Origin: a virus
Length of the DNA stretch: 52,567 nt
Direction: 5' to 3' (one strand)
Virus record (IMG/VR): IMGVR_UViG_3300034104_007004
Location: 1 to 52,567 of that record
Positions 8,836 to 51,125 of the stretch are shown one piece after another; positions within the stretch are counted from its first letter, which is position 1; the number at the start of each line of letters is the position of its first letter. The notes beneath the pieces are model-generated. The model ran no database searches. It had not been told where the DNA came from and worked only from the letters and a program-made list of their open reading frames with translations. A program made the position numbers and the translations under genes.

Positions 8836-9486
8836 TTAGTTTGTTTGGTTTATTAATTTATCATAAATTTCTGACAGTCGTTTTGTTTTTCCTTCGATAA
8901 CCGTGGTAAATTGATTAAGACCGTTGGTCCCACTGTTACCTCTTTCGTTATTGTGGGCGAAAAAAACTCCATTATTGTAAAGTTTATTCGGAGTGGAGTA
9001 TAGTTTACCCTCGAACTCCAAAAACCCATCACTTGTAAGTTTGACATCGTACTCTGTTTTTTTGTACACACGTTTTAGTTCAAGGTTTGGATATTTCTCT
9101 GAAAGTAAAAGAAGACGCTCGTCACGGGAATCCTGTTTTTCGGGTATAAGAACATTCAAATCCCCAATAGAAAAACCTTTTTTAGACATGTAGTTACTCA
9201 CAAACGATTCAATAGTTTTTTTATCGTCAATAAAAAACTCAGTAATGAAATCCGTGGTTCTGATTCTGATATCTTTTAAAAGGGTGTGGAGTTCTTTTTC
9301 GATTTCACTCATTTCATCAACCCACCATATTTTGAAAATCTTGACTTGGTAACTGGTATTGGTCCGACCCAAAGAACTCTGTCTTTCTGCGGGATTTATT
9401 GTTTTTCCAATTTTTATTTCAGATAAATCAACATCCTTGTTTAGGTGAGTATATTTTGCCAAATAAATGTATCCTGATTTTTCCAT
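8836..9486 (-). CDS. GIY-YIG-type nuclease domain protein (T5orf172/MUG113-like)
   Basis: In this 216-residue protein the first ~95 residues begin SGYIYLAKY and contain EIKIGKT. An RQSSLGRTN helix and a conserved EKELHTLL segment follow. This is the pattern of the T5orf172/MUG113 branch of the GIY-YIG nuclease superfamily. The C-terminal half carries no known domain. Such proteins are common in large phages and are thought to nick DNA, though many remain uncharacterised. It is first in its operon, and a host-type promoter sits only 4 nt before the ATG, predicting a leaderless message. Confidence 0.82.
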   Translation of the reverse strand: MEKSGYIYLAKYTHLNKDVDLSEIKIGKTINPAERQSSLGRTNTSYQVKIFKIWWVDEMSEIEKELHTLLKDIRIRTTDFITEFFIDDKKTIESFVSNYMSKKGFSIGDLNVLIPEKQDSRDERLLLLSEKYPNLELKRVYKKTEYDVKLTSDGFLEFEGKLYSTPNKLYNNGVFFAHNNERGNSGTNGLNQFTTVIEGKTKRLSEIYDKLINQTN

Positions 9487-11802: not shown

Positions 11803-11846
11803 ACCCCCCAACGTTCACGAGTATCTTTAATTACCTATAGCGACAG

Positions 11847-12254
11847 TGGAGGTGGCGGGAATCGAACCCGCGTCTTGCTCAGTTTACCCATAAAGGACTA
11901 CATGCTTAGGTCAGGGTTTGTTTAACCCTCCGAAATATTTGGTTCCTTTTTTTCCATCGTTACCAACAACTGTGGAGGATTCACTTAAATCGGTAGAACC
12001 CTAAACGAGACCTTTATTCCTTTTAGGGTAGAAACCACACCGTGGGGACTTCTGTTTCTAGGTTATATGTCCATCGACCCATTGTTGCTGAAGCCTTAGG
12101 CTACAGTAACTTCCTCAGCAGAGAGAAGACCCACTGCCTCGAGTTTTGCGAAAGTATCGCCTTTTGATTGTTGCTTCCGTAGATTAAGGTGATAGGAAAC
12201 ATCTCACCGCATGCCCCGTATGACTAACCCTGCCAATCAATACCGGTCACCCCC
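11847..12254 (-). ncRNA. ssrA: tmRNA (SsrA)
   Basis: The ends form an alanine-tRNA-like domain: 5' GGGGGTGACCGG, with GGGGGTG pairing to the 3' CACCTCC, and a T arm GCGGGTTCGATTCCCGC. Discriminator A, CCA not encoded. Inside is a short frame (12161-12096) whose stop lies in the loop of the hairpin AGCCTAAGGCT, the usual tmRNA arrangement, followed by a region rich in pseudoknot-like complementarities. tmRNA with SmpB rescues stalled ribosomes and tags the nascent chain for proteolysis. Here it has its own host-type promoter and a structured leader. No smpB gene is visible in the window, so host SmpB is presumably used. Confidence 0.92.
12096..12161 (-). other. tmRNA tag reading frame, 21 codons
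   Basis: Reading from GGC at 12161 the tag is 21 residues, beginning GDTFAK and ending EEVTVA, then TAA. The preceding TCAAAA context and the stop in a hairpin loop fit tmRNA rules, although the exact resume codon is inferred. The end differs from the ALAA/LAA degron of host tags, and the tag is about twice the usual length. Confidence 0.65.
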
Positions 12255-12273
12255 ATTATTTTCAAAGAACAAT

Positions 12274-12360
12274 AAGAAATCACTTTCGCCCCCTGTATAG
12301 ACATTACGTCAGATGCTTAAGGTCAGCCTTAACTATTAAGGGAGCCACCTGTGATTTCTT
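12274..12360 (-). ncRNA. structured leader element upstream of the tmRNA
   Basis: AAGAAATCAC at the predicted transcript 5' end (12360-12351) pairs over 10 bp with GTGATTTCTT (12283-12274). Inside are CCTTAA, TTAAGG and a second CCTTAA, so the middle segment can pair with either partner in mutually exclusive hairpins. A GACGTAATGTC hairpin and a GGGGGCGAAA segment follow. The tmRNA proper begins 20 nt further on. The element has tRNA-like size but no T loop, and I recognise no known family. Confidence 0.55.
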
Positions 12361-12363
12361 ATA

Positions 12364-12395
12364 CAAAGATAAGTATTTTATTCCAAACTATCCAA
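12364..12395 (-). promoter_or_regulatory. host-type promoter of the tmRNA transcript
   Basis: On the minus strand TTG (12395-12393), 21 nt, then TATCTTTG (12371-12364), fitting TAnnTTTG. The predicted start is at about 12360, exactly at the first base of the leader's closing stem. It lies within the 3' end of the oxygenase gene. Confidence 0.6.
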
Positions 12396-13112
12396 CTCAT
12401 TTTTCCAAATTGCACGTGTAACTAATTCAAATTTTGGTTTTTGATTGTTATAATAATACAAGGCTAAACTTTTACGTGTTATACTTTCAGGACATTTAAG
12501 TGAATGGGGATGTCCATGAGGTGCTTTATCGATACTAAACATTACAACCCTATTGGAAATTGGCGATATTTTTTTACAAGGACCTGACATGTCTTTCCAC
12601 CAAAGTTCTAAATCACCATCCCATTGTTCATCCCAATAAGAGTTGAGATACACAAGTAAGTTGATATGTCTGAAAAGGTTTTCATTTATGTGACTATCAT
12701 TGAAATCGTGGTGTATTTCTAATCTCCCATCTCTACCTGTTTGGTGATACGCAGCATTTGTGTATTCATTTGATTCATGTGTAAGATTTTGAAATCCTGT
12801 TATCTCAGATACGAGGTCCAAAAAATATTTTGAATTCAAAAATTCAATAATCTCTTTCATTGTTGGAAGTAAGTTATTGAAATTATAGATTTGTTTTTTG
12901 TTCACTTGACTCTCATGTTGGTCATAGTCACCTCCCCCGACAAATCTCCAATTTTCAGATGGGTTTGATGAAATGAATTCAACTTCATCGAGAAGACGAT
13001 TGATGACATCTTCACGGAAAAAATCATCCATGACAATATGGTTGAAAGGAATATCTGTTTTGTATGCCCGAGAATATTCCGATATGTTTCTGAGAGTTTT
13101 ATTGCTTAACAT
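12378..13112 (-). CDS. 2OG-Fe(II) oxygenase (prolyl-4-hydroxylase-like)
   Basis: This 244-residue protein carries the iron-binding HxD (His134, Asp136 in EIHHDFND), a distal His in the APHGHPHSL segment (201 or 203) and an Arg in ITRKSLALYYY (213) for 2-oxoglutarate. The core of residues ~125-222 is a double-stranded beta-helix typical of the 2OG-FeII_Oxy_3 family. These enzymes hydroxylate amino-acid side chains or other small groups using O2 and 2-oxoglutarate; the substrate is unknown. Such genes are common in T4-like marine phages. It reads towards the tmRNA and its 3' end contains the tmRNA promoter. Confidence 0.88.
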   Translation of the reverse strand: MLSNKTLRNISEYSRAYKTDIPFNHIVMDDFFREDVINRLLDEVEFISSNPSENWRFVGGGDYDQHESQVNKKQIYNFNNLLPTMKEIIEFLNSKYFLDLVSEITGFQNLTHESNEYTNAAYHQTGRDGRLEIHHDFNDSHINENLFRHINLLVYLNSYWDEQWDGDLELWWKDMSGPCKKISPISNRVVMFSIDKAPHGHPHSLKCPESITRKSLALYYYNNQKPKFELVTRAIWKNELDSLE

Positions 13113-13126
13113 AGTTTCAAGATAAG

Positions 13127-13169
13127 TATTTATTGTGATATGTCAAAACCAATACAGACAATAATTTAA
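13127..13169 (+). other. TATTTATT box followed by a 9-codon ORF
   Basis: TATTTATT (13127-13134) is followed 5 nt later by an ATG (13140) that opens a 9-residue frame (MSKPIQTII) ending TAA at 13169. No longer gene follows until 13273, which has its own promoter. It may be a leader peptide, a remnant or chance. Confidence 0.25.
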
Positions 13170-13225
13170 GATTCAGACTATTTTATCAAAAGAAACTATT
13201 GTCAGATTCATTGAACAAATCTTAA

Positions 13226-13257
13226 CTTGTAATTGTTGATAATTTTCATTATATTTG
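13226..13257 (+). promoter_or_regulatory. Bacteroidota-type promoter of the peptidase gene
   Basis: CTTG (13226-13229), 20 nt, then TATATTTG (13250-13257), with the ATG at 13273. It matches the TAnnTTTG consensus, with a three-base TTG at the upstream element. Confidence 0.65.
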
Positions 13258-13272
13258 TGAAAAGATTATATC

Positions 13273-14103
13273 ATGACTCCTGAAAAATTTGAACTTCTTA
13301 AGAAAGTTCTATCGGTTCCAACCAAAACCTACAAAGAAGGTTTGATGGTTGAATTCATTACCAATTGGCTTTCTGAAAAAGGGATTCCACATTATGTTGA
13401 CGAACACTTGAATGTATACGCAACAAAACAATCAGAGCAGAATGTTGAATGGTTTCCTTGTGTCATTTCTCACACCGATACGGTTCATCACTTGGAAGAA
13501 ATCAATGTCAAGGAGGAGTATCTTCCGAACGCACAAGGAGATGTTAAGTTATCCCTGAAAGCATATAACGACCACGGAAAACCTACGGGAATCGGTGGTG
13601 ATGACAAAGCTGGCGTGTTTGCCTGTCTAACCCTATTGGAGGAACTCCCCGATTTAAAGGCGGCATTCTTTGTATCAGAAGAAACAGGTTGTCACGGTTC
13701 GATGAAAGCCGACCCCAAGTTTTTCAAAAATGTTGGTTATGGTATTCAGTTCGACGCCCCCGAGAATTGGATGGTCACCGAATATTGTTTCGGTCAACAA
13801 CTCTTCGAACGTGAATCCAAATTTTTTGAGGTCTGTGACCATATCCTAACCGAAGGTACAGGTGGTAATCAAAAATATATGGTTCACCCCTATACTGATG
13901 TCTACTCTCTACGAGGAATGTTTGACTTCCAATGTATCAATTTCTCAATCGGTTACTACGATTACCACACCGCAAACGAATATGTTGTTGTGGATGACGT
14001 TGAAAACGGAATCGATATGGGTAGGAAAATGATTGATTCTCTTGGTTGTAATCTTCACTTCAAAGAGAAAGAAAAACCAAAATACAGAAATCACGTTTGG
14101 TAA
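13273..14103 (+). CDS. M20-like zinc peptidase
   Basis: This 276-residue protein contains the metal-ligand motifs of the M20/M28-type di-zinc peptidases in order: SHTDT (His67, Asp69), GGDDKAG (Asp110/111), SEETGCHGS (catalytic Glu136/137), a PYTDVYS near residue 200 and a C-terminal YDYHTANEYV with the last His. Family members include peptidase T and aminoacylases, which release single amino acids from small peptides. It is shorter than cellular relatives and seems to lack the inserted dimerisation domain. A host-type promoter precedes it and a terminator follows. It may recycle amino acids from degraded host protein. Confidence 0.85.
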   Translation: MTPEKFELLKKVLSVPTKTYKEGLMVEFITNWLSEKGIPHYVDEHLNVYATKQSEQNVEWFPCVISHTDTVHHLEEINVKEEYLPNAQGDVKLSLKAYNDHGKPTGIGGDDKAGVFACLTLLEELPDLKAAFFVSEETGCHGSMKADPKFFKNVGYGIQFDAPENWMVTEYCFGQQLFERESKFFEVCDHILTEGTGGNQKYMVHPYTDVYSLRGMFDFQCINFSIGYYDYHTANEYVVVDDVENGIDMGRKMIDSLGCNLHFKEKEKPKYRNHVW

Positions 14104-14106
14104 TAA

Positions 14107-14133
14107 AAAAGGGGGATTTTCGTCCCCCTTTTC
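14107..14133. terminator. bidirectional terminator
   Basis: GGGGGA (14111-14116) pairs with TCCCCC (14123-14128), flanked by A6 and T4 runs. It separates the convergent M20 peptidase and ClpC-like genes and serves both. Confidence 0.88.
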
Positions 14134-14135
14134 TT

Positions 14136-16133
14136 TTACTTACCGAGTTTTATTTCCTCATTCTCAACTTTGAGTTTGTACTTCTTTCCTTCCTTGATTT
14201 TCTCGGTGAGAACCAATTCTGAAATATAGTCTTCAATCTTGTCTTGGATTGCCCGTTTGATAGGACGTGCTCCGTAGACCTCATCGAAACCGATTTTGGA
14301 AATGTAATCAACCAAGGTTTGGTCGTAACTGAATTCGTACTTCAACTCCTTCATACGTCCCATCAGTTTGTTGAGTTCCAAACTAACGATTTGGTTGATG
14401 TTCTCCTTATTCAAGGTCTTGAACACGATAGTGTCATCGATACGATTCAAGAATTCAGGGGAAAAGAAATGTTTCATTTCCTTCATCAGGATTTGTTTCT
14501 TAGCCTCCTCGTTGGAGTACTTGTTGGATGAGAAACCAATACCCGAACCAAAGTCTTGAAGTTTCCTAACACCAAGGTTTGTGGTCATGATAATAAGGGT
14601 GTTCTTGAAGTTGATTTTACGACCGAGTGAATCCGTGACATGACCATCATCAAGAACCTGAAGAAGGATTGAAAAAATGTCTTTATGGGCTTTTTCAACC
14701 TCATCAAACAAGATTACACAGTAGGGTTTGTTTTTAACTTGTTCGGTAAGTTGTCCACCCTCTTCATAACCTACATACCCTGGGGGTGCTCCAACCAAAC
14801 GAGATACGGTGTGTTTCTCTTGGTATTCACTCATGTCCATTCGGATAAGGGCGTCTTCAGAACCAAACATCTCTTTGGCAATTTGTTTAGCCAAGTGTGT
14901 TTTACCCACCCCAGTTGAACCCAAGAAGATAAACGAACCAATCGGTCGGTTGGGGTCTTTGATTCCAATACGATTACGACGAATAGACTTGACGATTTTC
15001 TCGATTGCCTCGTCCTGTCCGATAACCTTTCCTTGAATGGACTTATCCATGTTGATAAGTGCTTTGGTGTCGTCAATGGACATCTTATTCACTGGAATTT
15101 TGGTCATCGAGGAAACCACATCATAGACTTGTTCTGCTGAGATGGGATTACGAGTAGAAGCAAACTGTTCCTCGTACTTCTTTTTTTCAGCATCGAGTCG
15201 TCCCAAGACTTTACGTTCTTTGTCACGGAGTTCTGCTGCTTGTTCGTAATTCTGACGTCTTACAACATCCATCTTCTGTTGTTTCACATCAGCAGCTTCC
15301 TTCTTGAGTTTCTCGATGGACTCAGGAACCTTTTGGTCGGTTTGGGAACGGGCACCAACCTCATCCAAGATATCGAATGCTTTGTCAGGGAACTCACGGT
15401 CTGTGATGTAACGGTCAGCTAGTTTGACACAGAGTTCAACAATCTCATCCGAGTAAGAAACCTTATGATAGGATTCGTACTTATCACGGATATTCTTGAG
15501 AATCTCGATGGTTTCAGAAACCGTTGATGGGTCAACGATAACCTTTTGGAATCGACGTTCAAGAGCGCCATCCTTTTCAAAAGATTTGCGGTATTCATCC
15601 AAGGTGGTAGCACCGATACATTGAAGTTCACCCCGAGCAAGTGCTGGTTTGAAAATGTTGGAACCATCCAAAGAACCGGATGAATTACCTGAACCAATCA
15701 AGGTGTGAATCTCATCGATAAAGATGATAATATTGGGATTGTTTTGAAGTTCTTCCAAGATAACCTTGAGTCGCTCCTCAAACTGCCCACGATACTTTGT
15801 ACCGGCAACCACAGCGGTTAGGTCCAAGTTAACAATTCGTTTGTCTAACAAATTTTTGGGACACTCCCCTTCGACAATCTTCATCGCCAAACCCTCAACG
15901 ATAGCGGTTTTACCACTACCAGGTTCACCCAAGATAATTGGATTGTTCTTCTTTCGACGTGAAAGAATCTGAGCAATACGGAGGATTTCCCTCTCCCTGC
16001 CAATGACAGGGTCAAGTTTTCCTTCGGTCGCCAACTTGTTCAAATCCCGTGAGAAATTATCCAACACAGGGGTTCCCGATTCAGATTTCTTTCTGCTGGT
16101 GGTTTTGTCGTCGTCGTCCATTGTTTCGTTCAT
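14136..16133 (-). CDS. ClpC-like AAA+ unfoldase without N-domain
   Basis: This 665-residue protein has two AAA+ modules: Walker A GEPGSGKT (69-76), Walker B IIFIDE (~136-141), arginine finger in ALERRF (~190-195); a UVR-type linker ([12 protein letters not shown], ~297-308); then Walker A GSTGVGKT (405-412), ILFDEVE and a C-terminal sensor domain (GARPIKRAI). It starts just before the first module, so the Clp N-domain used for adaptors is missing. IGF at 532-534 lies where ClpA/ClpC dock on ClpP, so partnership with host ClpP is likely. It should unfold and feed proteins in an ATP-dependent way. It is divergent from the UVR protein gene at 16298 across a region with repeated TGACA-N3-TGTCA sites. 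Confidence 0.92.
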
Positions 16134-16166
16134 AGTATTTGATTTTTTTACAAAGGTTAATCAAAA

Positions 16167-16277
16167 TTTGGACAATTCCAAATCTTTTGACAATCTGTCA
16201 TATGAAAATAAATTTTCCTGACATTTTGTCAGTAATTTGATTTTGGTACGTAACTTGACTATCATACCACAAAGATA
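16167..16277. promoter_or_regulatory. regulatory region with twin TGACA-N3-TGTCA palindromes
   Basis: Two perfect palindromes, TGACAATCTGTCA (16188-16200) and CTGACATTTTGTCAG (16218-16232), have centres 31 bp apart, three helical turns. A third inverted repeat, TTTGGACAATTCCAAA, lies at 16167-16182. For the minus strand a TATCTTTG box (16277-16270) could be the -7 element of the ClpC-like gene, with a poor upstream element. The arrangement is what a dimeric repressor would bind, downstream of the start point of the unfoldase gene. Confidence 0.6.
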
Positions 16278-16286
16278 AACAAAAAA

Positions 16287-16294
16287 TATTTATC
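16287..16294 (+). promoter_or_regulatory. TATTTATC box 3 nt before the UVR protein gene
   Basis: TATTTATC, then ATT and the ATG at 16298. It is the same 3-nt spacing as at 6191, 16800 and 40536. Confidence 0.5.
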
Positions 16295-16297
16295 ATT

Positions 16298-16756
16298 ATG
16301 AAAAACAGAAAAAACTTTTTTAACGCATGGGAAGACTTCGATGAAATCTTCCGTCAATTTTTTGGTCACGAATCAATGATTCGTGGAGATAGAGAAGTTG
16401 AAAAGGGTAAAGACAAAAACGGTGAATGGACTAAAAATACATACACCTCAGAAGACGGTCAAATCCAAATCCACAACTTTGTTAGAACTTCAACCTTCCC
16501 TGAGGAATTTATTAACATGTTTGCGAAACCAAGTAAGAAAACTAACACAATCGAAAACCTCAAACGTGAATTAGATAGAGCAGTGGAGAATGAAGATTTC
16601 CTCTTGGCAATCAAAATCCGTGACATGATTAAGGAAAAAGAAAGTAATAAAGATATTGTTGAAAAACTCGAGAAAGACCTAAAGAACTCGATTGAAAAAC
16701 AAGATTTTGAAACTTCGATAAAAATTAGAGAAGAACTCAAAAAATACCAAAACTAA
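16298..16756 (+). CDS. UVR-motif protein, possible ClpC adaptor (McsA-like)
   Basis: In this 152-residue protein the C-terminal half contains two UVR motifs (about residues 87-113 and 122-149), each of the form LxxxLxxAVExEDFxxAIKIRDxI. These helical hairpins are known from UvrB, ClpC and the ClpC adaptor McsA. The N-terminal ~80 residues are aromatic and acidic with no zinc-binding cysteines, unlike McsA. It is transcribed divergently from the ClpC-like gene, which itself carries a UVR-type linker. I infer that it binds the unfoldase and presents substrates or controls its activity in place of the missing N-domain. The role is untested. Confidence 0.75.
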   Translation: MKNRKNFFNAWEDFDEIFRQFFGHESMIRGDREVEKGKDKNGEWTKNTYTSEDGQIQIHNFVRTSTFPEEFINMFAKPSKKTNTIENLKRELDRAVENEDFLLAIKIRDMIKEKESNKDIVEKLEKDLKNSIEKQDFETSIKIREELKKYQN

Positions 16757-16799: not shown

Positions 16800-17147
16800 A
16801 TGTACGAAAAACTTTTAGATAAATACCTCCAAAATTCGGTCACATGGCAAAATGTCAAGGAGGCTTACATCGCCATACGTTCAGAACTTAAAAGACTCGG
16901 ATATTCCGAAGAAACACTTGAGCGTGTCGACCATATATCAGCCGAGTTAGTTAAACAACAAATGATTTTTGGACACGAATTAAAGCAACTAAGAAAAGAG
17001 TTCAAAAGTATCTTTGGACTTGACGACCACGAACGGGTGTCTGTTTACTTAGAGAACAAAATAAAACCAATAAATGACTTATTCCCTCTGAACGATGTCG
17101 ATAACGAAAGAAGAAATACAAGGGACAAAAATCCTGAACGAGATTAA
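16800..17147 (+). CDS. hypothetical helical protein, 115 aa
   Basis: A predicted all-helical soluble protein with alternating charged and hydrophobic residues (LDKYLQNSVTWQNVKEAYIAIRSELKRL type segments, abbreviated here). It is preceded immediately by a terminator and a late-type box. Its end overlaps the KTSC-domain gene by about 50 nt in another frame, so the two are coupled. There is no known family. It could be a small structural or assembly chaperone, judging only from its late-type box. Confidence 0.65.
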   Translation: MYEKLLDKYLQNSVTWQNVKEAYIAIRSELKRLGYSEETLERVDHISAELVKQQMIFGHELKQLRKEFKSIFGLDDHERVSVYLENKIKPINDLFPLNDVDNERRNTRDKNPERD

Positions 17148-17337
17148 ATCCTCAAATATGGTTCGTAGTGAGTACGACACCTCAACAAAAAAAATGATTG
17201 TTGAATTCAGCAATGGAAGTAAATATGAGTATTTGGAAGTACCACACAAGGTGTACACTCAATTTAGAATGTCGGAATCACAAGGTAAATTTTTTACCAT
17301 CAATATTTCCAAAAAATTCCAATACAACAAACTCTAA
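17095..17337 (+). CDS. KTSC-domain protein
   Basis: An 80-residue protein whose residues ~20-77 match the KTSC domain: SSNMVRSEYDTSTKKMIVEF, then a YEYLEVP strand and a C-terminal basic KKFQYNK. KTSC domains are small beta-rich modules found in phages and in proteins near lysyl-tRNA synthetases, with unknown function. Starting at 17095 it overlaps the previous gene by 53 nt; an ATG at 17158 would start just inside the domain and is less likely. A late-type box for the next gene follows within 10 nt. Confidence 0.75.
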   Translation: MSITKEEIQGTKILNEIKSSNMVRSEYDTSTKKMIVEFSNGSKYEYLEVPHKVYTQFRMSESQGKFFTINISKKFQYNKL

Positions 17338-17345
17338 ACCATTCG

Positions 17346-17353
17346 TATTTATT
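17346..17353 (+). promoter_or_regulatory. TATTTATT box 4 nt before gene 17358
   Basis: TATTTATT, then AAGG and the ATG at 17358, at the head of the structural-gene region. Confidence 0.55.
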
Positions 17354-17357
17354 AAGG

Positions 17358-18110
17358 ATGAGTGACGAGACGAACATCCTTGGCAGTTTTGGTTTACAAG
17401 ATACACTTAATCCCAAAATTTGGGAAAACGCTGATAGCGCCAAAGACTCACGTATGAAACCAAAAGTACGTGAAGCCCTTATGAAAATTGCGGAAAAATT
17501 TCAAGGGGATTTATCTGAAGACTTAAAAGTGGATGATGTAATATTGACAGGTTCATTGGCAAACTTTAATTGGTCAAGATACTCAGATTTTGATTTACAC
17601 TTGGTTATTGATTATAAAGAATTCAAAAATCAGTCGGAATTATATGAAGAACTTTTTCAACTGAAAAAACAACTCTTCAATAACAAACATGACATCAAAA
17701 TTTTCGGATATGAAGTTGAGTTGTATCCACAAGACGCTGAAGAACAACATTTCAGTAGTGGAGTATATTCAGTACAGAATGACAAATGGGTTAAGACACC
17801 CTCTAAGAAAACGGAAGAAATTGATAGGGAGACTTTGAGGAGTAAGGCCAATTCTTGGAAACAAAAAATTGAGACTTTAATTTCCGACATAAAAAAAAAT
17901 GGATTAGAAAAATCTGAGACCAAACTAAAAACTTTTAAAGATAAATTAAAAGAGTATAGAACCGCTGGTTTGGAAAAGGGCGGTGAGTTTTCTTACGAAA
18001 ATTTGGTCTTCAAATACCTCCGTAGGTCAGGTCTTATAGAAAAACTTTATGACACAGTCAACAAACAATCTGATAAAGAACTATCAGTTGAGGTAAGAAA
18101 AGTAGATTAA
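17358..18110 (+). CDS. nucleotidyltransferase-fold protein
   Basis: In this 250-residue protein, residues ~55-85 carry the polymerase-beta-type signature GSLANFNWSRYSDFDLHL: the G-S helix start and the D-x-D metal-binding pair (DFD), with a further acidic residue (ELY) after the next strands. The C-terminal part is a helical, basic segment. Minimal nucleotidyltransferases of this class transfer a nucleotide onto proteins, RNA ends or small molecules; the target is unknown. It sits under a late-type box right before the virion genes. A role in modifying host or virion components is possible. Confidence 0.78.
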   Translation: MSDETNILGSFGLQDTLNPKIWENADSAKDSRMKPKVREALMKIAEKFQGDLSEDLKVDDVILTGSLANFNWSRYSDFDLHLVIDYKEFKNQSELYEELFQLKKQLFNNKHDIKIFGYEVELYPQDAEEQHFSSGVYSVQNDKWVKTPSKKTEEIDRETLRSKANSWKQKIETLISDIKKNGLEKSETKLKTFKDKLKEYRTAGLEKGGEFSYENLVFKYLRRSGLIEKLYDTVNKQSDKELSVEVRKVD

Positions 18111-18177: not shown

Positions 18178-19026
18178 ATGGCAACCATAACATATCTAAT
18201 AGCCCCTTGTGCCGGTGGGTCGGCAGTAACCGTTGAGTTTAGTGCGAGCACATTACCCGTAGTTGGAGGAAACTATTATTTGAACTTTACGGGTGATACA
18301 ACACCAGGTTGTTATGAGGTTGCTGATACCGCCGAACCAGGTACAGGAACTGATGAGGTTACAGGTGCTTTAGGAACTAATTATGGTGATTGTGTAACGT
18401 GTTTAGAAGCAAACGTAACTCCAACTCCTACCCCGACATCCACAGTCACCCCCACCCCAACAGTAACATCTACGAGAACTCCAACACCAACACCAACGAG
18501 AACGGTTACTCCAACAGTCACGAGTTCGATTACACCAACACCTTCGGTTACAAGTAGTGTGACACCTACAGTTACGAGAACTTCCTCGCCAACTCCTACT
18601 CCTTCAGTTACAACAACCGTTACACCATCAATAACTCCAACTCGAACTGTTACTCCATCTGTAACATCTTCACTAACACCAACACCATCAGTAACTTCAA
18701 GTGTTACCCCAACCCCATCTGTGACCCCAACGAGAACAGTCACACCTACGGTGTCTCCAACAAGCACTGTTACCCCAACTGTGACTAGTACTTCTACTCC
18801 CACCCCAACACCAACAATGACACCAACACCATCAAACTTTGGTATTTTTGAGGTTGATGTTCAATATACCTATTATGATTGTTACACTTGTTCGGGTGAT
18901 ACAATTTCAAGACCAGTTCCACACCCTGTGGATTGGGTACCTGTTGGCCCTAACGGACAACGCCAAGGCACGGTAATCGATATGAGTGCTGTTGCTCTTG
19001 GTGGATTTAACGGATTAAATAACTAA
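18178..19026 (+). CDS. Thr/Pro/Ser-rich virion protein
   Basis: This 282-residue protein has an N-terminal ~80-residue beta-rich domain with several Cys. A linker of about 140 residues follows, made almost only of Thr, Pro, Ser and Val in TPTPT/TPSVTSSVTPT units. The C-terminal ~65 residues form another Cys-containing domain (YYDCYTCSGD). The layout of two small domains joined by a flexible stalk resembles the edge gene at 1-918. There is no signal peptide, so export by the general pathway is not expected; it is more likely a head or neck fibre. The linker is an obvious candidate for glycosylation by the phage sugar cluster, which is inference. Confidence 0.78.
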   Translation: MATITYLIAPCAGGSAVTVEFSASTLPVVGGNYYLNFTGDTTPGCYEVADTAEPGTGTDEVTGALGTNYGDCVTCLEANVTPTPTPTSTVTPTPTVTSTRTPTPTPTRTVTPTVTSSITPTPSVTSSVTPTVTRTSSPTPTPSVTTTVTPSITPTRTVTPSVTSSLTPTPSVTSSVTPTPSVTPTRTVTPTVSPTSTVTPTVTSTSTPTPTPTMTPTPSNFGIFEVDVQYTYYDCYTCSGDTISRPVPHPVDWVPVGPNGQRQGTVIDMSAVALGGFNGLNN

Positions 19027-26408: not shown

Positions 26409-27116
26409 ATGACCTTCGGACAGATAAAATCCATAATTGAAAAAAACTTAGTTGAATCATACAACAAGCCTACTTCCTTTAAACAAACTTTAAGGGAATT
26501 CAAACATAACGTTTTAGAAAATAAAAATTTTGCCAAACTATACTCTTTGTATGATGATTTATTGTCACCTAAAGGTTTGAAAGAAACGGAGGCAAGAGAA
26601 TACCTTGACGAAGGTATTGAAGTGATTAGACATATTCTCAAGACTACTCAACTCCCCAAGAAAGGTGGTGATGTGGTTAATGTTTACGAAGATTTGGACA
26701 ATTTGGTTTATTACACCAAAATCAACATCCAAGAAAGATTAGAGTCAAGAAAAAATATTCTCAAAGCTTTGATGACTGAAACTTCAAAGAAAAGAGAATC
26801 TGTTAATATACCAATCAAATCGATGGTAAACATAGCTAATCAAACTATTCAAAATTATTTGACAAGTTTGGATGAAACAACAAAAAAAGAAGTGTTTCAC
26901 ATCTTGGCATCTAAGTCGGATGACTTGGAAAAAGAATATACAAACCTGAAAGATTCCACAATTTCAAAATTAAATTCTTTATACGAGGAACAATCTGAAT
27001 CTGAAATGAAAACAAGAATTTCAGAAACAATTGAAAAAATTCAGTTGGAAGATTTTGACCAAGTTAATTATATTAGACTAAAACAACTCGAAGAGTCACT
27101 TAGTCAAGAGAATTAA
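26409..27116 (+). CDS. putative prohead core protein with capsid-targeting N-terminus
   Basis: A 235-residue, strongly helical and charged protein between portal and protease, where T4 has the core proteins gp67 and gp68. The first 16 residues (MTFGQIKSIIEKNLVE) form an amphipathic helix ending in L-V-E, the type of cleavage site used by T4-type prohead proteases. The rest is coiled-coil-like. I infer an internal core or scaffold-associated protein that is trimmed on maturation. No sequence family is recognised, so the call rests on position and N-terminal motif. Confidence 0.65.
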   Translation: MTFGQIKSIIEKNLVESYNKPTSFKQTLREFKHNVLENKNFAKLYSLYDDLLSPKGLKETEAREYLDEGIEVIRHILKTTQLPKKGGDVVNVYEDLDNLVYYTKINIQERLESRKNILKALMTETSKKRESVNIPIKSMVNIANQTIQNYLTSLDETTKKEVFHILASKSDDLEKEYTNLKDSTISKLNSLYEEQSESEMKTRISETIEKIQLEDFDQVNYIRLKQLEESLSQEN

Positions 27117-27282
27117 GTTTCTGTTTGTAAATTGCAGACAATTTTTGTTTTCGTCTAACTACTGATTTTTTCGTAAACTCTTTTCTCCCATTCAAAATTT
27201 GGGACTGTTTGGTTTTGATTACTTTGGATTTCAAAGTCTTTAAAGCTTTTTCTATGTTTGAGTTAACAATTACAATTAGCAT
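27100..27282 (-). CDS. rpsU: ribosomal protein bS21
   Basis: A 60-residue basic protein whose NIEKALKTLKSKV, RKEFTKKSVVRRKQK and AIYKQK segments follow the bS21 pattern closely. bS21 binds the small ribosomal subunit near the anti-Shine-Dalgarno region and helps mRNA choice. In Bacteroidota, bS21 is reported to contribute to hiding the anti-SD. Some large phages carry their own copy. Here it lies on the strand opposite to the head genes and overlaps the end of the 26409 gene by 17 nt tail-to-tail. No SD is seen at the usual distance (a GGAG lies about 33 nt upstream). I infer replacement of host bS21 to favour phage messages. Confidence 0.85.
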   Translation of the reverse strand: MLIVIVNSNIEKALKTLKSKVIKTKQSQILNGRKEFTKKSVVRRKQKLSAIYKQKLNSLD

Positions 27283-43186: not shown

Positions 43187-43462
43187 TCAATAATGATTAA
43201 TTAAGTTTTTATTTAGTAGTGAGTTGAAAGCAAGTTTAAAAGGTATTGAAGCATCAAAATTTTTCAAGCCCAATTTTTCGTCGTTCACTTCATTTTCCAT
43301 CATTACGACGTCTAACATAAGTTTGACAAGTTCAAATTTGATTACGTTGATTTTTTGTTCTGAAGAACCTGAAAACTCAGTTTCTGTCAAATCTTTCATA
43401 TCTATGTACTTTTCGATGGCATCAAAATCGATAAAGTAAGTTTCATTAAAAACTTGTAACAT
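43187..43462 (-). CDS. hypothetical protein, 91 aa
   Basis: A small acidic helical protein (KYIDMKDLTETEFSG; KINVIKFELVKLMLDVVM) that overlaps the 43446 gene by 17 nt and precedes the glycosyltransferase by 1 nt. No membrane segment or motif. The short gap and overlap show that it is translated as part of the operon. It may be a small phage-conserved assembly or regulatory protein, but I see no evidence for either. Confidence 0.62.
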   Translation of the reverse strand: MLQVFNETYFIDFDAIEKYIDMKDLTETEFSGSSEQKINVIKFELVKLMLDVVMMENEVNDEKLGLKNFDASIPFKLAFNSLLNKNLINHY

Positions 43463-44054
43463 TCAATTTTTTTATTGTTTCGTTTAAATCCTTAAACTCT
43501 TTTATTGTAAATTCTTTTTGAATTTCTGTATTGTATGCAGATTCGAATTTTATTACTTTTTTGTTTTCAGGATGGTTTAATAATAAGTCGGGACTTGCCG
43601 TAAGTAAAACATCTACCTCATCCCACATAGAATCTATAGTAATTTTACTATAAAATTTTACCTTTTCTACTTGGCAACCAAACTTTGATAGAAAAAATAA
43701 AGTTGCAGGTTTAGATTTTCCAATCTCATCCGATACGATTAGTATTTCATGTTGGTCACGATTTTTAACATAAAATTCATTAAAGTCGACAAATGTACTC
43801 ATTTCAACCGATGGTGAGTGTGCAAAAATCTCCATACAATGTTCAGTGTATAAAAAATCGTAAACTTCATCCTCGTTTTGAAATTTCAAATGTTGGGAAA
43901 GATTTAAAGAGGTAATATCGGAAATAATACCATATTCGAAGTCACCCTCTTTTTTCTCAATCAAAGGGTTGTCAATATACCATTTTTCATACACCTGTAA
44001 AATTTTGGTGATGGTATCTCGTAGTACCCCGTTAATTTCAATTCCTACCTTCAT
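43446..44054 (-). CDS. HAD-like nucleotidase/phosphatase-fold protein
   Basis: In this 202-residue protein the N-terminus MKVGIEINGVLRDT resembles HAD motif I but with Glu/Asn in place of the two aspartates. ILIVSDEIGKSKPATLFFL supplies a motif II/III-like strand with Ser and Lys, and DEVDVLLTASPDLL resembles motif IV. The loss of the DxD nucleophile suggests a degenerate, perhaps non-catalytic member. It overlaps PhoH by 17 nt. The assignment is by fold resemblance only. Confidence 0.6.
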   Translation of the reverse strand: MKVGIEINGVLRDTITKILQVYEKWYIDNPLIEKKEGDFEYGIISDITSLNLSQHLKFQNEDEVYDFLYTEHCMEIFAHSPSVEMSTFVDFNEFYVKNRDQHEILIVSDEIGKSKPATLFFLSKFGCQVEKVKFYSKITIDSMWDEVDVLLTASPDLLLNHPENKKVIKFESAYNTEIQKEFTIKEFKDLNETIKKLNVTSF

Positions 44055-44784
44055 TTGTATTGATGTATCTTTGTAAAATTTTTGTGATTAAAGGATTACG
44101 AACAATATCGGCATCTTTAAATTCATGAACCCCAATTTGTTCCATGTTACCAAACCTTTTAATTGCGTCAAAAAGTCCTGATTGTGTTTTGTCCTTATAT
44201 CTATCGGTTTGGTCAATATCACCTGAAATAAAAAATTTTGAGTTGAACCCGATACGAGTTAATAAAAGTTTCATTTGATTGGGAGATGAATTTTGTGCTT
44301 CTTCGAAAAGAAGGATAGAATTATCAATATTCATACCTCTCATGTACGCAAGTGCGAAAACCTCAATGACCTCCAAATCTTTTAGTCGTTCCCGTACATC
44401 CTTACCAATAATTTTATTAAGAAGATAATATGTGGGGAAAATATATGGGTCCAATTTTTCTTCAACATTACCAGGTAGTGAACCAAGTTTTTCTTCAGCT
44501 TCAACTGCGGGTCTTACGATGATAATTTTTTCATAGGGTGTATTAGGGTCTGCAATCAAATCAATTGCACACTTCATTGCAATATAACTTTTACCGACTC
44601 CCGCGGGACCTGAACAAATTGTTATTTGAGAATTATGAAGTTTTTCATAATATTCTTTTTGACTTACTGATAAAAATTTTTCTTTGGTTTTTCTTTTGAT
44701 AATCGAACTAATAATTTCTTTTTTAGAACGATATTGTTCGTCTCCGTTATTGGAGCTTCCGCTTTGGATGGGTCTCTTCTTCAT
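44038..44784 (-). CDS. phoH: PhoH-like ATPase
   Basis: In this 248-residue protein a P-loop GPAGVGKSY (~residue 58-66) and a Walker B-like ILLFEEAQN (~residue 157-165) are followed by a sensor region FISGDIDQTD. These are the motifs of PhoH, an ATP-binding protein related to the helicase superfamily I core that many phages carry. In bacteria it is linked to RNA metabolism and phosphate stress, but its activity in phage infection is unsettled. It is in the operon between the 44791 gene and the HAD-like gene, overlapping the latter by 17 nt. Confidence 0.92.
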   Translation of the reverse strand: MKKRPIQSGSSNNGDEQYRSKKEIISSIIKRKTKEKFLSVSQKEYYEKLHNSQITICSGPAGVGKSYIAMKCAIDLIADPNTPYEKIIIVRPAVEAEEKLGSLPGNVEEKLDPYIFPTYYLLNKIIGKDVRERLKDLEVIEVFALAYMRGMNIDNSILLFEEAQNSSPNQMKLLLTRIGFNSKFFISGDIDQTDRYKDKTQSGLFDAIKRFGNMEQIGVHEFKDADIVRNPLITKILQRYINTNEGRN

Positions 44785-44790
44785 TTAATA

Positions 44791-45285
44791 TTATTTAGTA
44801 CGTTCCCGAGTTTCATGGGGTGCTCCGAACTCTCTTTTGTATACGGTCTTCCCTCCGTCAGGACTTTCATAGATATAAATTTTTTCTGTTTTTGAAGTTT
44901 GAGTTTTATAATCCTCATAACTTTTTTGTTCCTTCAATTCCGAATTTGTCATTTGGTTTATTTTGTTTTTTAGTGAGAACCTCTCATCATTAGTATAGTA
45001 AACTAATCGCGCTAATTCTATAAATTCTGAGTCAAATCTTTGATTTTTTTCAAAAATCCTCAATTTATCTTCAACATCCCAAAGTTTAGAATTGACCTCA
45101 ATTAAAGAATCGTAAAGTTTTTTAATTTCAATATTCTCGAAATATACCTCAGAGATTTTGTTCAATTCATTATACTCTTTTTTTACCTCAAAGAGTTTAT
45201 TTTGGTCCTTAATATTTTTCTTTTTTACTTGGAGGATAGATAATTTATCAATAAGTTCTCCAACACTAACAGGTACTTGTATCAT
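44791..45285 (-). CDS. DUF6165-like protein of the glycan cluster
   Basis: The likely start is the ATG at 45285 (MIQVPVSVGELIDKLSIL), 1 nt after the upstream stop, giving 164 residues; a longer frame to 45348 would overlap the methyltransferase. The N-terminal motif IxVPVSxGELIDKLxIL is the hallmark of a small family seen in LPS and sugar clusters of bacteria and phages. Its role is not known. The remaining two-thirds is a charged coiled-coil-like helix with a basic tail. Confidence 0.7.
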   Translation of the reverse strand: MIQVPVSVGELIDKLSILQVKKKNIKDQNKLFEVKKEYNELNKISEVYFENIEIKKLYDSLIEVNSKLWDVEDKLRIFEKNQRFDSEFIELARLVYYTNDERFSLKNKINQMTNSELKEQKSYEDYKTQTSKTEKIYIYESPDGGKTVYKREFGAPHETRERTK

Positions 45286-45286
45286 G

Positions 45287-46042
45287 CTATTTTGTGCAAA
45301 TAAAGGTAATTTTATAATCAGTTGCTTTTGCAATTTCTTGGTCGTCAAATTTGGGTATTATATTCAAAACTTTCATTCCTGAAATCTCAATCAAAGATTT
45401 TAAAATATCTGGTGTCCAAAGTTTGTGTAAAATACCGTATTTGAAATTGTCCACTTTTTCATTTTCAGAAAAAACATCCACATTAGTTTCCACCAAAGAC
45501 CATGAATCAAAAAGATTCGTAGTGGTTTCTGATTGTAGTTCTAAAGTATACCAATCATAGTTAATAAACTTCTTTTGAATTTCAGTTGGTAATTCAATTC
45601 TACAAGCGGTACCATTCCAACAATCAAAAATGAAAGTACCACCCTCGTTTAACTTACATTTTACGTCTTCAAAGAACAAGGATAAATCTTCGAGTGTCTG
45701 AATGTGATTCACCACATTAAACATAGAAATCACAGTATCGAACCTACCTTCAACATCACTTACACTACCATTATGTAATTCAATGTTTGTGATGTTGTTT
45801 TGATTAATTTTTTTCTGAGCTTCGTTTAACATTGGTTCAGACAAATCGACCCCAACAACTTTTCTGAAGTATTCGGAAAGATAAATTGAATGATTGGCAG
45901 TTCCACAACCAATATCTAACAAAGAGTCTTTGTTTTCTGAGTGTCGATATATTAAATTGGATTCAATTTCATAATCTTTATCGATATGAATTGTGTCGTA
46001 GTATTTTGAATATTTGTCAAAATATGTTTCAGACATTTGCAT
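45287..46042 (-). CDS. class I SAM-dependent methyltransferase
   Basis: In this 251-residue protein motif I LLDIGCGTANHSIYL (~residue 37-51) and the acidic VVGVDLSEPML bind S-adenosylmethionine. FDTVISMFNVVNHI is motif IV and GGTFIFDCWNG a later strand. It probably methylates a sugar or a glycan-linked residue, given its place between sugar-nucleotide genes. It overlaps the epimerase start by 14 nt. An ATG at 46036 (MSETYF) is an equally good start. Confidence 0.85.
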   Translation of the reverse strand: MQMSETYFDKYSKYYDTIHIDKDYEIESNLIYRHSENKDSLLDIGCGTANHSIYLSEYFRKVVGVDLSEPMLNEAQKKINQNNITNIELHNGSVSDVEGRFDTVISMFNVVNHIQTLEDLSLFFEDVKCKLNEGGTFIFDCWNGTACRIELPTEIQKKFINYDWYTLELQSETTTNLFDSWSLVETNVDVFSENEKVDNFKYGILHKLWTPDILKSLIEISGMKVLNIIPKFDDQEIAKATDYKITFICTK

Positions 46043-46961
46043 AGGGGTCGTTGTATTTTATAGTTTTTATACCTCTAACAAGTTCATCGATTCCTTCCTC
46101 AAGTGAGATTGTAGTTTCAAATCCGAGACTGTTAATTTTGTCGTAAGAAACTACATAATCTCTTTTATCGGCATCCATTCCGATATCTGCCAAGTGTAGG
46201 TAGTAATCGACTTTACTCTGAATTAGATTACAAACATCACGTTTGCTGTAGTTCATTGAATTTCCACCAACATTATAAATTTCACCTGTCATTTTTTTTT
46301 CGTTTTTGATGGCAAATTGGAATGAACGGGCAATGTCTTTTACGTGTATAAAGGTTCTCATAAAATGAGACTCATAAACTACAATGTATTTTTGATTAAT
46401 TGCTTTATTAACAAAATCATTAATCAATAAGTCCAATCTCAATCGAGGAGATAATCCAAAAGCGGTTGCGAATCTATATGCCGTAGAGTTCGAATTTTCA
46501 ATGAGGTACCTCTCAGCCTCTGTTTTGGTTTCTCCATATAAACTAAGTGGATTGAGTGGGGTTTCCTCTGTACAGATTCCCTCTTTTACCGCTCCGTAAT
46601 TACTACCTGTAGAACCAAACAAAATGTATTGTTCAGGACGTAACATATCAACCAATCTCTTGGTAGATTCCAAATTCACCTCTTTAGCTAAAACTTGATT
46701 TTTTTGACATGCTGGGTAACCAACAATTGCCGCTAAGTGAATTATGACATCATGGGATTGAACGATTGGCTCAAGTTTTTTAGTGTCCCTGATATCACCC
46801 TCAACGAAAGAAAAATTGGGATTTATAAAGTTGGTGAATAAACTATTTCCACCAAACATAAGACTATCGTATACGGTAACTTGGTATCCAGACTTAAGGA
46901 GTTCAGGTACTAAAACACTACCGATATATCCAGCACCTCCTGTAACTAAAATTCTTCTCAT
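46029..46961 (-). CDS. NAD-dependent sugar epimerase/dehydratase (GalE-like)
   Basis: In this 310-residue short-chain dehydrogenase-like protein, TGGAGYIG (7-14) is the NAD(H)-binding loop, GDIRDT a second nucleotide contact, and YGETK gives the catalytic Tyr142/Lys146 with Thr/Ser near 118-120 (FGSTGSNYG). It acts on a nucleotide sugar in the cytoplasm, changing stereochemistry or removing water; which is not decided by sequence. It overlaps the 3,5-epimerase-like gene by ATGA (46958-46961). Confidence 0.88.
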   Translation of the reverse strand: MRRILVTGGAGYIGSVLVPELLKSGYQVTVYDSLMFGGNSLFTNFINPNFSFVEGDIRDTKKLEPIVQSHDVIIHLAAIVGYPACQKNQVLAKEVNLESTKRLVDMLRPEQYILFGSTGSNYGAVKEGICTEETPLNPLSLYGETKTEAERYLIENSNSTAYRFATAFGLSPRLRLDLLINDFVNKAINQKYIVVYESHFMRTFIHVKDIARSFQFAIKNEKKMTGEIYNVGGNSMNYSKRDVCNLIQSKVDYYLHLADIGMDADKRDYVVSYDKINSLGFETTISLEEGIDELVRGIKTIKYNDPYANV

Positions 46962-47473
46962 AGGTAATCTACAAATTGGTCTCTTTGTGAGAGAATCGGA
47001 TTATTGATTGGGAAATATGCCCCCACTTTTGGGTCGTCCCACTTTACGGTGAATTGTTTTCCCTGTCCCTCATAAAGGGTTGATTGTTTGTAGTGGAACA
47101 TTGCTGTTTCACTCATAACCAAGTGGGCGTTTCCGAACATTGGTGGGATGAGAATCTGTGTTCTGTTTTTATCGTTTAAGGCGAATGATTCCCACTTAAG
47201 ATAAGTAGGACTATCAGGTCTCATATCAACAATCACTTGATACAAACTTCCATAAAGACAAGAAATCAACTTGTGTGTGTTTTGGTCTCCGTGGAAACCT
47301 CTTAGGGTGTGTCTTACTGAAACACTAATATCATCTTGTTTAAACTCTACACCGAATTGTTGGTAAAGTTCAACATTCCACGTCTCAACATATTCACCAC
47401 GAAAATCTTGGAAGATTTCGGGTTGTATAATTTTTACATCTTCTCCGAAGACTTTACTATAATTAAATTTCAT
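46958..47473 (-). CDS. dTDP-4-dehydrorhamnose 3,5-epimerase-like protein (RmlC fold)
   Basis: In this 171-residue protein DFRGEYVETW, HTLRGFHGDQNTHKLISC (His61 as catalytic base) and the strand VDMRPDSPTYLKW follow the RmlC cupin order. The FHYKQSTLYEG segment carries the Tyr. RmlC converts dTDP-4-keto-6-deoxyglucose to the rhamnose series. This short version might instead process another keto sugar. It overlaps both neighbours by a few bases, so it is made together with the epimerase and methyltransferase. Confidence 0.85.
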   Translation of the reverse strand: MKFNYSKVFGEDVKIIQPEIFQDFRGEYVETWNVELYQQFGVEFKQDDISVSVRHTLRGFHGDQNTHKLISCLYGSLYQVIVDMRPDSPTYLKWESFALNDKNRTQILIPPMFGNAHLVMSETAMFHYKQSTLYEGQGKQFTVKWDDPKVGAYFPINNPILSQRDQFVDYL

Positions 47474-48206
47474 TTTTTTCTAAATAAATTGTAAAACTGG
47501 GGTCTATTGGTTTATGAGTTTTGATGACTTTGTAGCCATTCATTTCTGCAAACTTTTTCATGGTTGATTGTGAAAAATAAAATAAATGGTCTCCGTCTTC
47601 GGTAATTTGTTTCCATTCTGATTTCAGAGTGTTATGAGTTTCCGATTCGATATCATGAGTACCAATTACCAAAATCCCGTTCTGTTTTAACCTCTTATAA
47701 CATTCATCCAAAAATTTCTTAGGGTCATCTAAATGTTCGATAACGTTGAAACAAGTTATTACATCAAAATCGGTGTCTTCGAGATTTTCTAAAAGAGTTG
47801 TACTGAGATTTATCGGCTCGTATTTTTTTTGACCATATTCTATACATTCCTTGTTTGGGTCGATTCCTAAAGATTCAAATCCTAACTTGTTTGCGGAATT
47901 TACTAAGAAACCCATAGAACAACCCACATCTAATAATTTACCTTCTTTTTTAAATTCAGTGATAAATTCCATACGTTCATCACTTATAAATTCGAATTCT
48001 TCAATCCTGTCGTAAATGGACTTTTCTCCCTGTAAAATTTGGTAGGTTGTCCAATAATCATTTTCGTAGGCGAAGTCAACGTTTGGTCTATCTTCGATTA
48101 CTGAATAAATAAATTCACAATCACACTTTATAATCTTGTTATTGTATTTTGGGAATTCGTAGATAACCTCACCCCCATGTCCACCACATAATAAACAACT
48201 TACCAT
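47463..48206 (-). CDS. class I SAM-dependent methyltransferase with N-terminal Cys motif
   Basis: In this 247-residue protein the N-terminal CLLCGGHG, with a CDCEF further on, can bind zinc. Motif I LLDVGCSMGFLVN (~residue 87-99), SLGIDPNKEC and ITCFNVIEHLDDP form the SAM site. The layout with an N-terminal Cys cluster resembles sugar C-methyltransferases (NovU/TylC3-like), though the C-terminal part of those is missing. A sugar-modifying methyltransferase is likely. It overlaps the aminotransferase gene by 7 nt. Confidence 0.82.
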   Translation of the reverse strand: MVSCLLCGGHGGEVIYEFPKYNNKIIKCDCEFIYSVIEDRPNVDFAYENDYWTTYQILQGEKSIYDRIEEFEFISDERMEFITEFKKEGKLLDVGCSMGFLVNSANKLGFESLGIDPNKECIEYGQKKYEPINLSTTLLENLEDTDFDVITCFNVIEHLDDPKKFLDECYKRLKQNGILVIGTHDIESETHNTLKSEWKQITEDGDHLFYFSQSTMKKFAEMNGYKVIKTHKPIDPSFTIYLEKNEI

Positions 48207-49312: not shown

Positions 49313-49320
49313 GTTTAATT

Positions 49321-50694: not shown

Positions 50695-51125
50695 TTGTAG
50701 TGTGAAATGTTATCTGAACATATACCAAGACAATCGAGCTTAATATACTTGTAATTTGTTTTTTCCGGTAAAACCCAAATACTATTTTTCGAGACTTTTT
50801 TACCAGGATAAACCCACGGGATTCCTTTGGAAGTTAATGTATAATCATCTTCTTGATGCCAAAAACAATGTATGTTTGGATTTTCAAGCATTTTAAAAAG
50901 AGAGTCTTCATTTTTTGCGTGACACCAAAACTTTTCATTTTCTAAAAAAGATTCCTCAATTGAATAAAATGGTTCGTCATGACCCAAATAAAATTTTCCG
51001 TCAACAAACCACACATCGATTTCTACTTCAAACCCTTTCTCCAGTGCGTTTAGAACATAATAAGGAGAGTTTTCTGAATTTGCTATTCGTCCATCAACAT
51101 TACCCCGATGTGAAATTAGAATCAT
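50691..51125 (-). CDS. GDPD-like phosphodiesterase
   Basis: The start is the ATG at 51125 (MILISHRGNV), which overlaps the upstream stop as ATGA; an upstream TTG would be non-standard. The 144-residue protein has ISHRGN with the catalytic His, EVEIDVWFVDGKFYLGHDEP with the acidic metal ligands and second His, matching a short glycerophosphodiester phosphodiesterase domain. It lacks the C-terminal strands of cellular enzymes. In this cluster it may release or trim a glycerol-phosphate or sugar-phosphate unit. Confidence 0.8.
   Translation of the reverse strand: MILISHRGNVDGRIANSENSPYYVLNALEKGFEVEIDVWFVDGKFYLGHDEPFYSIEESFLENEKFWCHAKNEDSLFKMLENPNIHCFWHQEDDYTLTSKGIPWVYPGKKVSKNSIWVLPEKTNYKYIKLDCLGICSDNISHYK

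Follow-up and report, generated by a model that had tools for sequence, protein, structure and literature searches.

The window analysed in this study, a fragment deposited as a virus record of 52,567 bases in IMG/VR, contains a locus in which a tmRNA gene and a gene coding for a ClpC-like unfoldase are found in close proximity. The locus starts with a one-piece, full-length tmRNA gene (ssrA, positions 11844-12254, reverse strand), which is followed by genes for a 2OG-Fe(II) oxygenase (12378-13112, reverse), a single-domain metallopeptidase resembling PepT and M42 enzymes (13273-14103, forward), a double AAA+ unfoldase of 665 residues lacking an N-domain (14136-16133, reverse) and, divergent from the latter, a protein of 152 residues containing two UVR motifs (16298-16756, forward). 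Three conserved flanking genes on the forward strand (16800-18110), encoding an unknown protein of 115 residues, a KTSC protein and a nucleotidyltransferase, anchor the locus and are ascribed no role in the following. The major head protein, portal, terminase and head protease of the phage are T4-like, and the closest terminases from isolates include one of a Flavobacterium phage (27.5% identity). Between portal and head protease resides a gene for the ribosomal protein bS21 (27100-27282, reverse; Pfam PF01165, 37.1 bits), a marker of the lineage located outside of the module described here. The same bS21 arrangement is the signature of a group of phages with predicted Bacteroidetes hosts (Chen et al. 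2022, PMC9723584), and moraphages, which infect Flavobacteriia, carry genes for a Clp ATPase, a peptidase, HSP20 and DnaK (2025, PMC12619734). In light of the shared reverse-strand bS21 next to portal and protease, the same set of Clp ATPase, peptidase, HSP20 and DnaK genes and hosts among the Bacteroidota, the window phage probably belongs to the same broad group. Neither of the two papers contains an occurrence of the term tmRNA (PMC9723584, PMC12619734), and the tag and the partner slot next to clpC described below are equally absent from both. The phages carrying the tmRNA-clpC locus constitute a large and abundant family of aquatic Bacteroidetes phages, which we have characterized from sequences alone, mostly on fragmentary contigs and with many loci being near-copies of each other.

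Two further genes are located within the interval. The oxygenase, identified by Pfam and not mentioned in the first-pass annotation of this DNA, is a variable passenger outside of the core; in the first 94 sequences its family is matched only four times, and part of these matches derive from copies of a single contig. Conversely, the M20-like peptidase, which had been noticed between the tmRNA and the UVR gene, is indeed present (Pfam M20, 26.6 bits compared to a cut-off of 24.6). Its AF2 model (pLDDT 88) finds its best Foldseek matches in PepT tripeptidases and M42 aminopeptidases, the HxD motif of the Zn site is conserved in all 196 relatives, and the family comes in two forms, one of about 276 residues on one strand and another of about 345 residues on the other. 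We consider the peptidase to be probably an accessory part of the module.

A phage tmRNA with a conserved tag

The presence of a tmRNA, as proposed in the first-pass annotation, was confirmed by a match to the Rfam family RF00023 with 80.7 bits (gathering threshold 47) that covers the full model from position 1 to 374. ARAGORN did not call the tmRNA in the window and detects it in relatives. The acceptor stem read from the sequence (GGGGGUG/CACCUCC) contains the G3.U70 pair that confers alanine identity, and the 3' CCA is not fully encoded. Compensatory changes are found in 31 of the 37 base pairs predicted by RNAalifold in an alignment of 27 relatives, and a tmRNA is contained in all 14 long records examined, 13 of which exceed the Rfam threshold.

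The tag reading frame (12096-12161, reverse) encodes the peptide GDTFAKLEAVGLLSAEEVTVA and begins with the GGC resume codon, terminating at a UAA stop located in the usual stop hairpin. From relatives we have automatically extracted 61 distinct homologous tags, 53 with a length of 21 and 8 with a length of 22 residues. Within the 21-mers, G1, K6, G11 and A21 are invariant (53/53) and L12 nearly so, with several synonymous codons in use at positions 6, 11, 12 and 21. A further few tags contain T, N or Q in place of K6 or end in VTI or VTVS. The ratio of pN/pS amounts to 0.62 in the tag frame, a value that is only moderately low, compared to 0.85 and 1.39 in the other two frames. As judged from these sequences, the tag reading frame is conserved at the level of the peptide. 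When used as query, the nucleotide pattern of the tag core identified 108 stretches in viral contigs, and all 106 that could be retrieved are part of a tmRNA. In 58 of these 106 stretches, a clpC gene is contained within the retrieved sequence, always upstream and on the same strand.

The described features place the phage RNA next to bacterial trans-translation, where tmRNA and SmpB act in conjunction with ClpXP or ClpAP. Both share the same tmRNA architecture, the resume codon and a tag frame with a stop hairpin, and SmpB is present in a few of the phage relatives. Unlike its bacterial counterpart, the phage system is virus-encoded, carries a fixed tag of 21-22 residues with a conserved internal core and has its tmRNA retained together with ClpC instead of ClpX. 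Phage-borne tmRNAs as such have been described in the Bxz1/Wildcat group, phage G, Streptomyces phages and the OM43 phage Melnitz (PMC4131195, PMC9004378). In the parts of these reports that we consulted, the tags differ from those of the present family and no linked Clp unfoldase or ClpP is mentioned.

Since most tags end in hydrophobic residues followed by Ala, as observed in host SsrA tags, the phage RNA could merely boost or replace the tmRNA of the host and deliver its products to host ClpXP, with the phage ClpCP being directed towards host, defence or scaffold proteins. Such a role would find a parallel in many actinophage tmRNAs with host-like ALAA tags. The tags of Flavobacterium hosts end in YALAA. 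In the phage family, in contrast, the tags differ in their ends, many of which do not resemble LAA (VTVA, VVGA, VVTA, VTI, VTVS), and hardly vary in the internal K-x4-G-L core. A search of 84,980 bacterial and archaeal genomes with the core pattern returned only two matches, neither of them in a tmRNA. Both are located in ordinary GC-rich DNA, so that the searches lend no support to the tag being a bacterial one. Taken together, we regard a route via host ClpXP as quite improbable.

An unfoldase without N-domain and its exchangeable neighbour

The unfoldase finds its best match of known structure in ClpC from S. aureus (PDB 6em8), with which it aligns from residue 12 onwards over residues 152-802 (743.6 bits). 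The alignment encompasses two AAA+ modules and continues through a short M-domain of the ClpC type without large gaps, in accordance with the two-module ClpC lacking an N-domain that had been assigned at first pass. Walker A and B motifs, pore loops and the M-domain are conserved in 212 homologues. The IGF tripeptide at the position of ClpP docking resides exactly where it was initially placed, at residues 532-534 (14532-14540, reverse), and is retained as [IVML]GF in all 212 phage proteins. The gene leaves no room for an N-domain, since the divergent UVR gene begins 165 bp upstream. Because a Clp_N domain is absent from the window protein and was detected in none of 16 records, either free or fused, we refer to the protein as 'ClpC-like, N-domain-less'. 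An assignment as ClpB or ClpA was rejected, as the respective scores of 828 and 727 bits are below the NCBIfam equivalog cut-offs of 1232 and 993 bits.

The general organization resembles bacterial ClpC-ClpP complexes working with MecA or McsA/McsB in Bacillota or with ClpS in mycobacteria, which contain the same two AAA+ modules, a short M-domain with a UVR-like tip, an [IVML]GF docking loop and a ClpP with an intact triad. They differ from the phage set, where any N-domain is missing in the genomes examined and where the partner is either a UVR protein without zinc ligands, HSP20 or DnaK. At the tip of the M-domain, which carries a UVR-type motif (15216-15263, reverse), Y296 of the window protein aligns with F436 of S. 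aureus ClpC, and a Tyr occupies this position in 210 of 212 phage proteins. In S. aureus, ClpC is proficient on GFP-SsrA if removal of the N-domain is combined with the mutation F436A, whereas it is not proficient if F436A is introduced in presence of the N-domain and inactive if the N-domain is deleted with the M-domain intact; the authors ascribe the reading of the SsrA tag to the central pore (PMC12583610). Similarly, ClpC1 from M. tuberculosis unfolds an SsrA-tagged protein, and the mycobacterial adaptor ClpS acts through the M-domain independently of the N-domain (PMC6274998). A phage protein acting on a ClpC is found in Gp53 of SPO1, an adaptor-like modulator (PMC6873191). Its target is the ClpCP of the host, whereas the phages described here bring their own ClpC, a tag and usually also ClpP.

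The gene divergent from clpC occupies a position that we denote as slot. In the window it codes for a protein with two UVR stretches (Pfam, 42.3 bits), as recognized in the first-pass annotation. A family alignment of relatives drawn from IMG/VR and an AF2 model (pLDDT 65) suggest an N-terminal helix, a three-stranded sheet and the two UVR motifs. The protein matched neither PHROGs nor phages in INPHARED, and a Foldseek search with the N-terminal part of the model of pLDDT 65 retrieved only a weak match to RadD (E 0.016). We have rejected its identification as McsA, as none of 162 family proteins contains a CxxC motif and the NCBIfam McsA score is 26 compared to 210 bits. We likewise make no claim of homology to HSP20, given a profile comparison that aligned only 13 columns with 4% probability. 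Both proteins begin with similar helices of the pattern F-[ND]-x-[LM]-[FM]-x-x-[FI]-F.

Across 212 ClpC loci, the slot is occupied by a UVR protein in 144 and by HSP20 in 40 cases, and never by both. The remaining 27 assessable loci include four with a DnaK of 619 residues (Pfam HSP70, 860 bits), two huge phages and about 21 loci where no slot gene is recognizable, which suggests that the partner is not obligatory. A fifth DnaK occupies the slot in L188. On a tree of 108 ClpC sequences the slot label changes 17 times, with at least 10 changes of the UVR label being forced by well-supported branches alone, and among the records searched no HSP20 was found outside of those carrying it in the slot. 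The exchange indicates a place for a proteostasis partner rather than for one fixed adaptor. It also weakens the initial proposal that the UVR protein would replace the missing N-domain, since the slot contains HSP20, DnaK or nothing in other loci while every ClpC still lacks the domain. A profile of the UVR repeats from slot proteins instead matches the tip of the M-domain in 212 of 212 phage ClpC proteins, with KLKKELKKAIENQDFEKAIELRDQIKKL found in the aligned pair. This shared motif points to the M-domain rather than the N-domain: the UVR protein may act as a soluble mimic of the M-domain tip and compete with M-domain contacts.

Linkage of tmRNA, clpC and clpP

A search with ClpC as bait provided 80 viral loci, and the enlarged set comprises 212 ClpC loci. 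In the 157 loci where both genes are found, the tmRNA is invariably located downstream of clpC, at a distance of 0.9-6.3 kb and in 156 cases on the same strand. The joint presence of tmRNA, ClpC and a partner in related phages, a check that had been set beforehand, is thus strongly borne out. Within the loci found with the ClpC bait, the tmRNA was encountered wherever the stretch was long enough, except for the huge phages L092 and L093. Seven loci with more than 5 kb of retrieved downstream sequence, the two huge phages and five others, show no tmRNA in this stretch. One tmRNA-less stretch, L272, is located on the contig of G025, where a tmRNA follows a little further on. The two huge phages, identified by ClpC similarity (LR745206 and LR756502), contain an N-domain-less ClpC, ClpP and SmpB, with Rfam matches to tmRNA that remain below the threshold. 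The same arrangement was returned by baits other than ClpC, namely the tag, the UVR protein and a flanking gene: searches with the nucleotidyltransferase yielded at least 600 matches, and the block recurs in the best 80 of these. A recurrence over more than 200 related loci implies that the arrangement is not due to chance.

The conserved synteny of the whole region, which extends to genes without evident connection such as those encoding the KTSC protein and the nucleotidyltransferase, might reflect nothing but shared ancestry, with clpC and tmRNA as core genes that have nothing to do with each other and only share a frozen part of one phage lineage. Against this, both the genes and the distances between clpC and tmRNA vary, the peptidase changes its type and strand and the slot content was replaced repeatedly. 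Moreover, the identities of tmRNA and ClpC are only loosely correlated (r = 0.49), with 86 pairs of loci sharing more than 85% identity in the tmRNA and less than 75% in ClpC, and 446 pairs showing less than 65% in the tmRNA and more than 85% in ClpC. The sequences thus indicate that tmRNA and clpC alleles recombine while the gene pair is kept, neither of the two being lost despite frequent discordance. We therefore assign a very low probability to common descent as sole cause of the linkage.

A gene for ClpP is contained in 26 of 40 records of the lineage (11/20 and 15/20) and in 10 of the 11 records with a length of at least 158 kb. It is absent from G002 (187 kb) and G003, which both provide enough sequence. 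From the coordinates, clpP is located on the strand of clpC in 26 of 26 cases and 13-48 kb downstream in 25 of them. The encoded proteins (Pfam, about 195 bits) find their best solved relative in a bacterial ClpP (168 bits), and an alignment of 11 of them shows an intact catalytic triad of Ser, His and Asp throughout. They are distinct from the T4-type head protease, which is encoded by a separate gene. The window itself contains no ClpP, since its contig continues for just 14 kb beyond clpC and does not reach the region where G001 and G012, its relatives of 83-84% identity, encode the protein (about 27-29 kb downstream). The presence of an intact ClpP in most relatives suggests that the peptidase of the host is not needed, contrary to the routing through host ClpP that had been proposed. 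Of the initial interpretation, a quality-control module consisting of tmRNA, ClpC and a partner has been retained, whereas the routing through host ClpP is not supported and the case for the UVR protein as stand-in for the N-domain is weakened. SmpB is encoded in four records of the lineage, three of which have the gene no more than about 0.7 kb away from the tmRNA.

The same data bear on the question whether the genes provide two independent services, with the tmRNA rescuing ribosomes and ClpC together with the slot chaperone serving as disaggregase or as aid in the folding of large quantities of virion protein, and the tag not being a substrate of ClpC. HSP20 and DnaK are classic chaperones, the conserved block adjoins structural genes as would suit a folding aid for virion proteins, and the heat-shock proteins of moraphages were interpreted by their authors as folding aids or in terms of counter-defence (PMC12619734). 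The two records lacking ClpP despite ample sequence would be compatible with the same scenario. Conversely, the docking tripeptide is kept in each of the 212 ClpC proteins, unlike in ClpB-type proteins dedicated to disaggregation, ClpP is found in all but one of the 11 long records, and the core of the tag stays constant while the slot partner changes. The latter suggests that the tag is more likely read by ClpC, the constant part of the module. We thus consider a separation into two services to be unlikely.

A candidate virus-owned pathway

We favour the view that the locus forms the core of a virus-owned pathway for trans-translation and ClpCP proteolysis, a proposal that we regard as reasonably probable. 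From the observed gene content, linkage and conservation, we infer how tag recognition, partner binding and degradation would proceed. The phage tmRNA, in conjunction with host SmpB or the phage SmpB present in some relatives, would rescue ribosomes stalled during infection and attach the conserved peptide of 21-22 residues, instead of the tag of the host, to incomplete proteins. ClpC, whose ATPase sites, pore loops and docking loop are intact, would thread the tagged proteins directly, since the central pore is where tags of the SsrA type are read, and since the N-domain poses a barrier. The loss of this domain probably lets the phage ClpC read the tag at the pore. The phage ClpP, intact in most relatives, would be its peptidase partner, and the PepT-like enzyme could plausibly trim the ClpP products, thereby supplying amino acids for virion synthesis. 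The slot partner, whether UVR protein, small heat-shock protein or DnaK, would feed or activate ClpC, and the UVR protein, with its two copies of the M-domain-tip motif, could do so by breaking the contacts through which the M-domain keeps ClpC in its inactive state. Against this pathway stand the inactivity of the N-deleted S. aureus ClpC with intact M-domain, as the phage proteins keep an aromatic Tyr at the tip, the huge phages combining an N-domain-less ClpC, ClpP and SmpB with no tmRNA above threshold, the lack of ClpP in G002, G003 and the window itself, that of a slot partner in about 21 loci and the only moderately low pN/pS of the tag frame. More tentatively, and with greater doubt than for the pathway as such, ClpC might be a dedicated reader of the phage tag at the level of the pore and the UVR protein a detached, soluble copy of the M-domain tip that opens the resting state of the enzyme, with the whole pathway being owned by the virus and operating in parallel to, and insulated from, that of the host.

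Whereas the parts are of known kinds, we have found no description of their assembly into a module of tmRNA with its own tag, N-domain-less ClpC and exchangeable partner in the open-access literature searched. To our knowledge, no virus was previously shown to own the whole route from ribosome rescue to proteolysis. If correct, our proposal would describe the first such case, among aquatic phages of an abundant group, and it would provide a natural counterpart of the N-domain-deleted ClpC that has only lately been studied in the laboratory. The family would also supply some 60 naturally occurring tags, along with unfoldases paired with UVR proteins, HSP20 or DnaK, as a resource for studies of substrate choice in Clp proteins. 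Finally, it suggests why tmRNA is present in large phages in the first place: the RNA could sustain the work of ribosomes and allow amino acids to be reused upon destruction of host mRNA or upon stalling of translation by defence systems.

Lineage marker and other regions of the window

The window contains a bS21 gene on the reverse strand (27100-27282), located between the genes for the portal and the head protease, an arrangement that is a marker of Bacteroidetes bS21 phages. Close to the structural genes, and within a conserved neighbourhood, resides a 282-aa protein (18178-19026) with a long Thr/Pro repeat (TPTPTVTxT). A T5orf172/MUG113 (GIY-YIG-type) protein (8836-9486) is found within the tRNA region, and a minus-strand cluster (43446-52476), whose members on reading appear epimerase-, aminotransferase- and phosphatase-like, looks like a set of nucleotide-sugar and surface-glycan genes.

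Variation of clpC and tmRNA among related loci

In the related viral locus L203 (4359-6584), the gene of the ClpC-like unfoldase is interrupted within the Walker A motif of its first AAA+ module by an intein-like insertion with the terminal sequence ...SHN/CGKT. Two ORFs make up clpC in L201, and a ClpC fragment is present as a separate piece in L176, L271 and L272. The tmRNA is encoded on the strand opposite to clpC solely in L248 (484-872; 1 of 157 loci). The huge phages L092 (LR745206, 635 kb) and L093 (LR756502, 642 kb) combine a ClpC lacking the N-domain with ClpP in two to three copies, with SmpB and with a ClpS, and no tmRNA above the Rfam threshold was found in either.

The position divergent from clpC

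Full-length phage-encoded DnaK, divergent from clpC in L050 (5972-7831) and L188 (623-2479), occupies the site of the UVR protein or HSP20 in relatives. Beside this position, at 16800-17337 of the window, lie genes for an uncharacterised protein of 115 aa and for a KTSC protein; both are kept there in most loci and are possibly connected with proteostasis.
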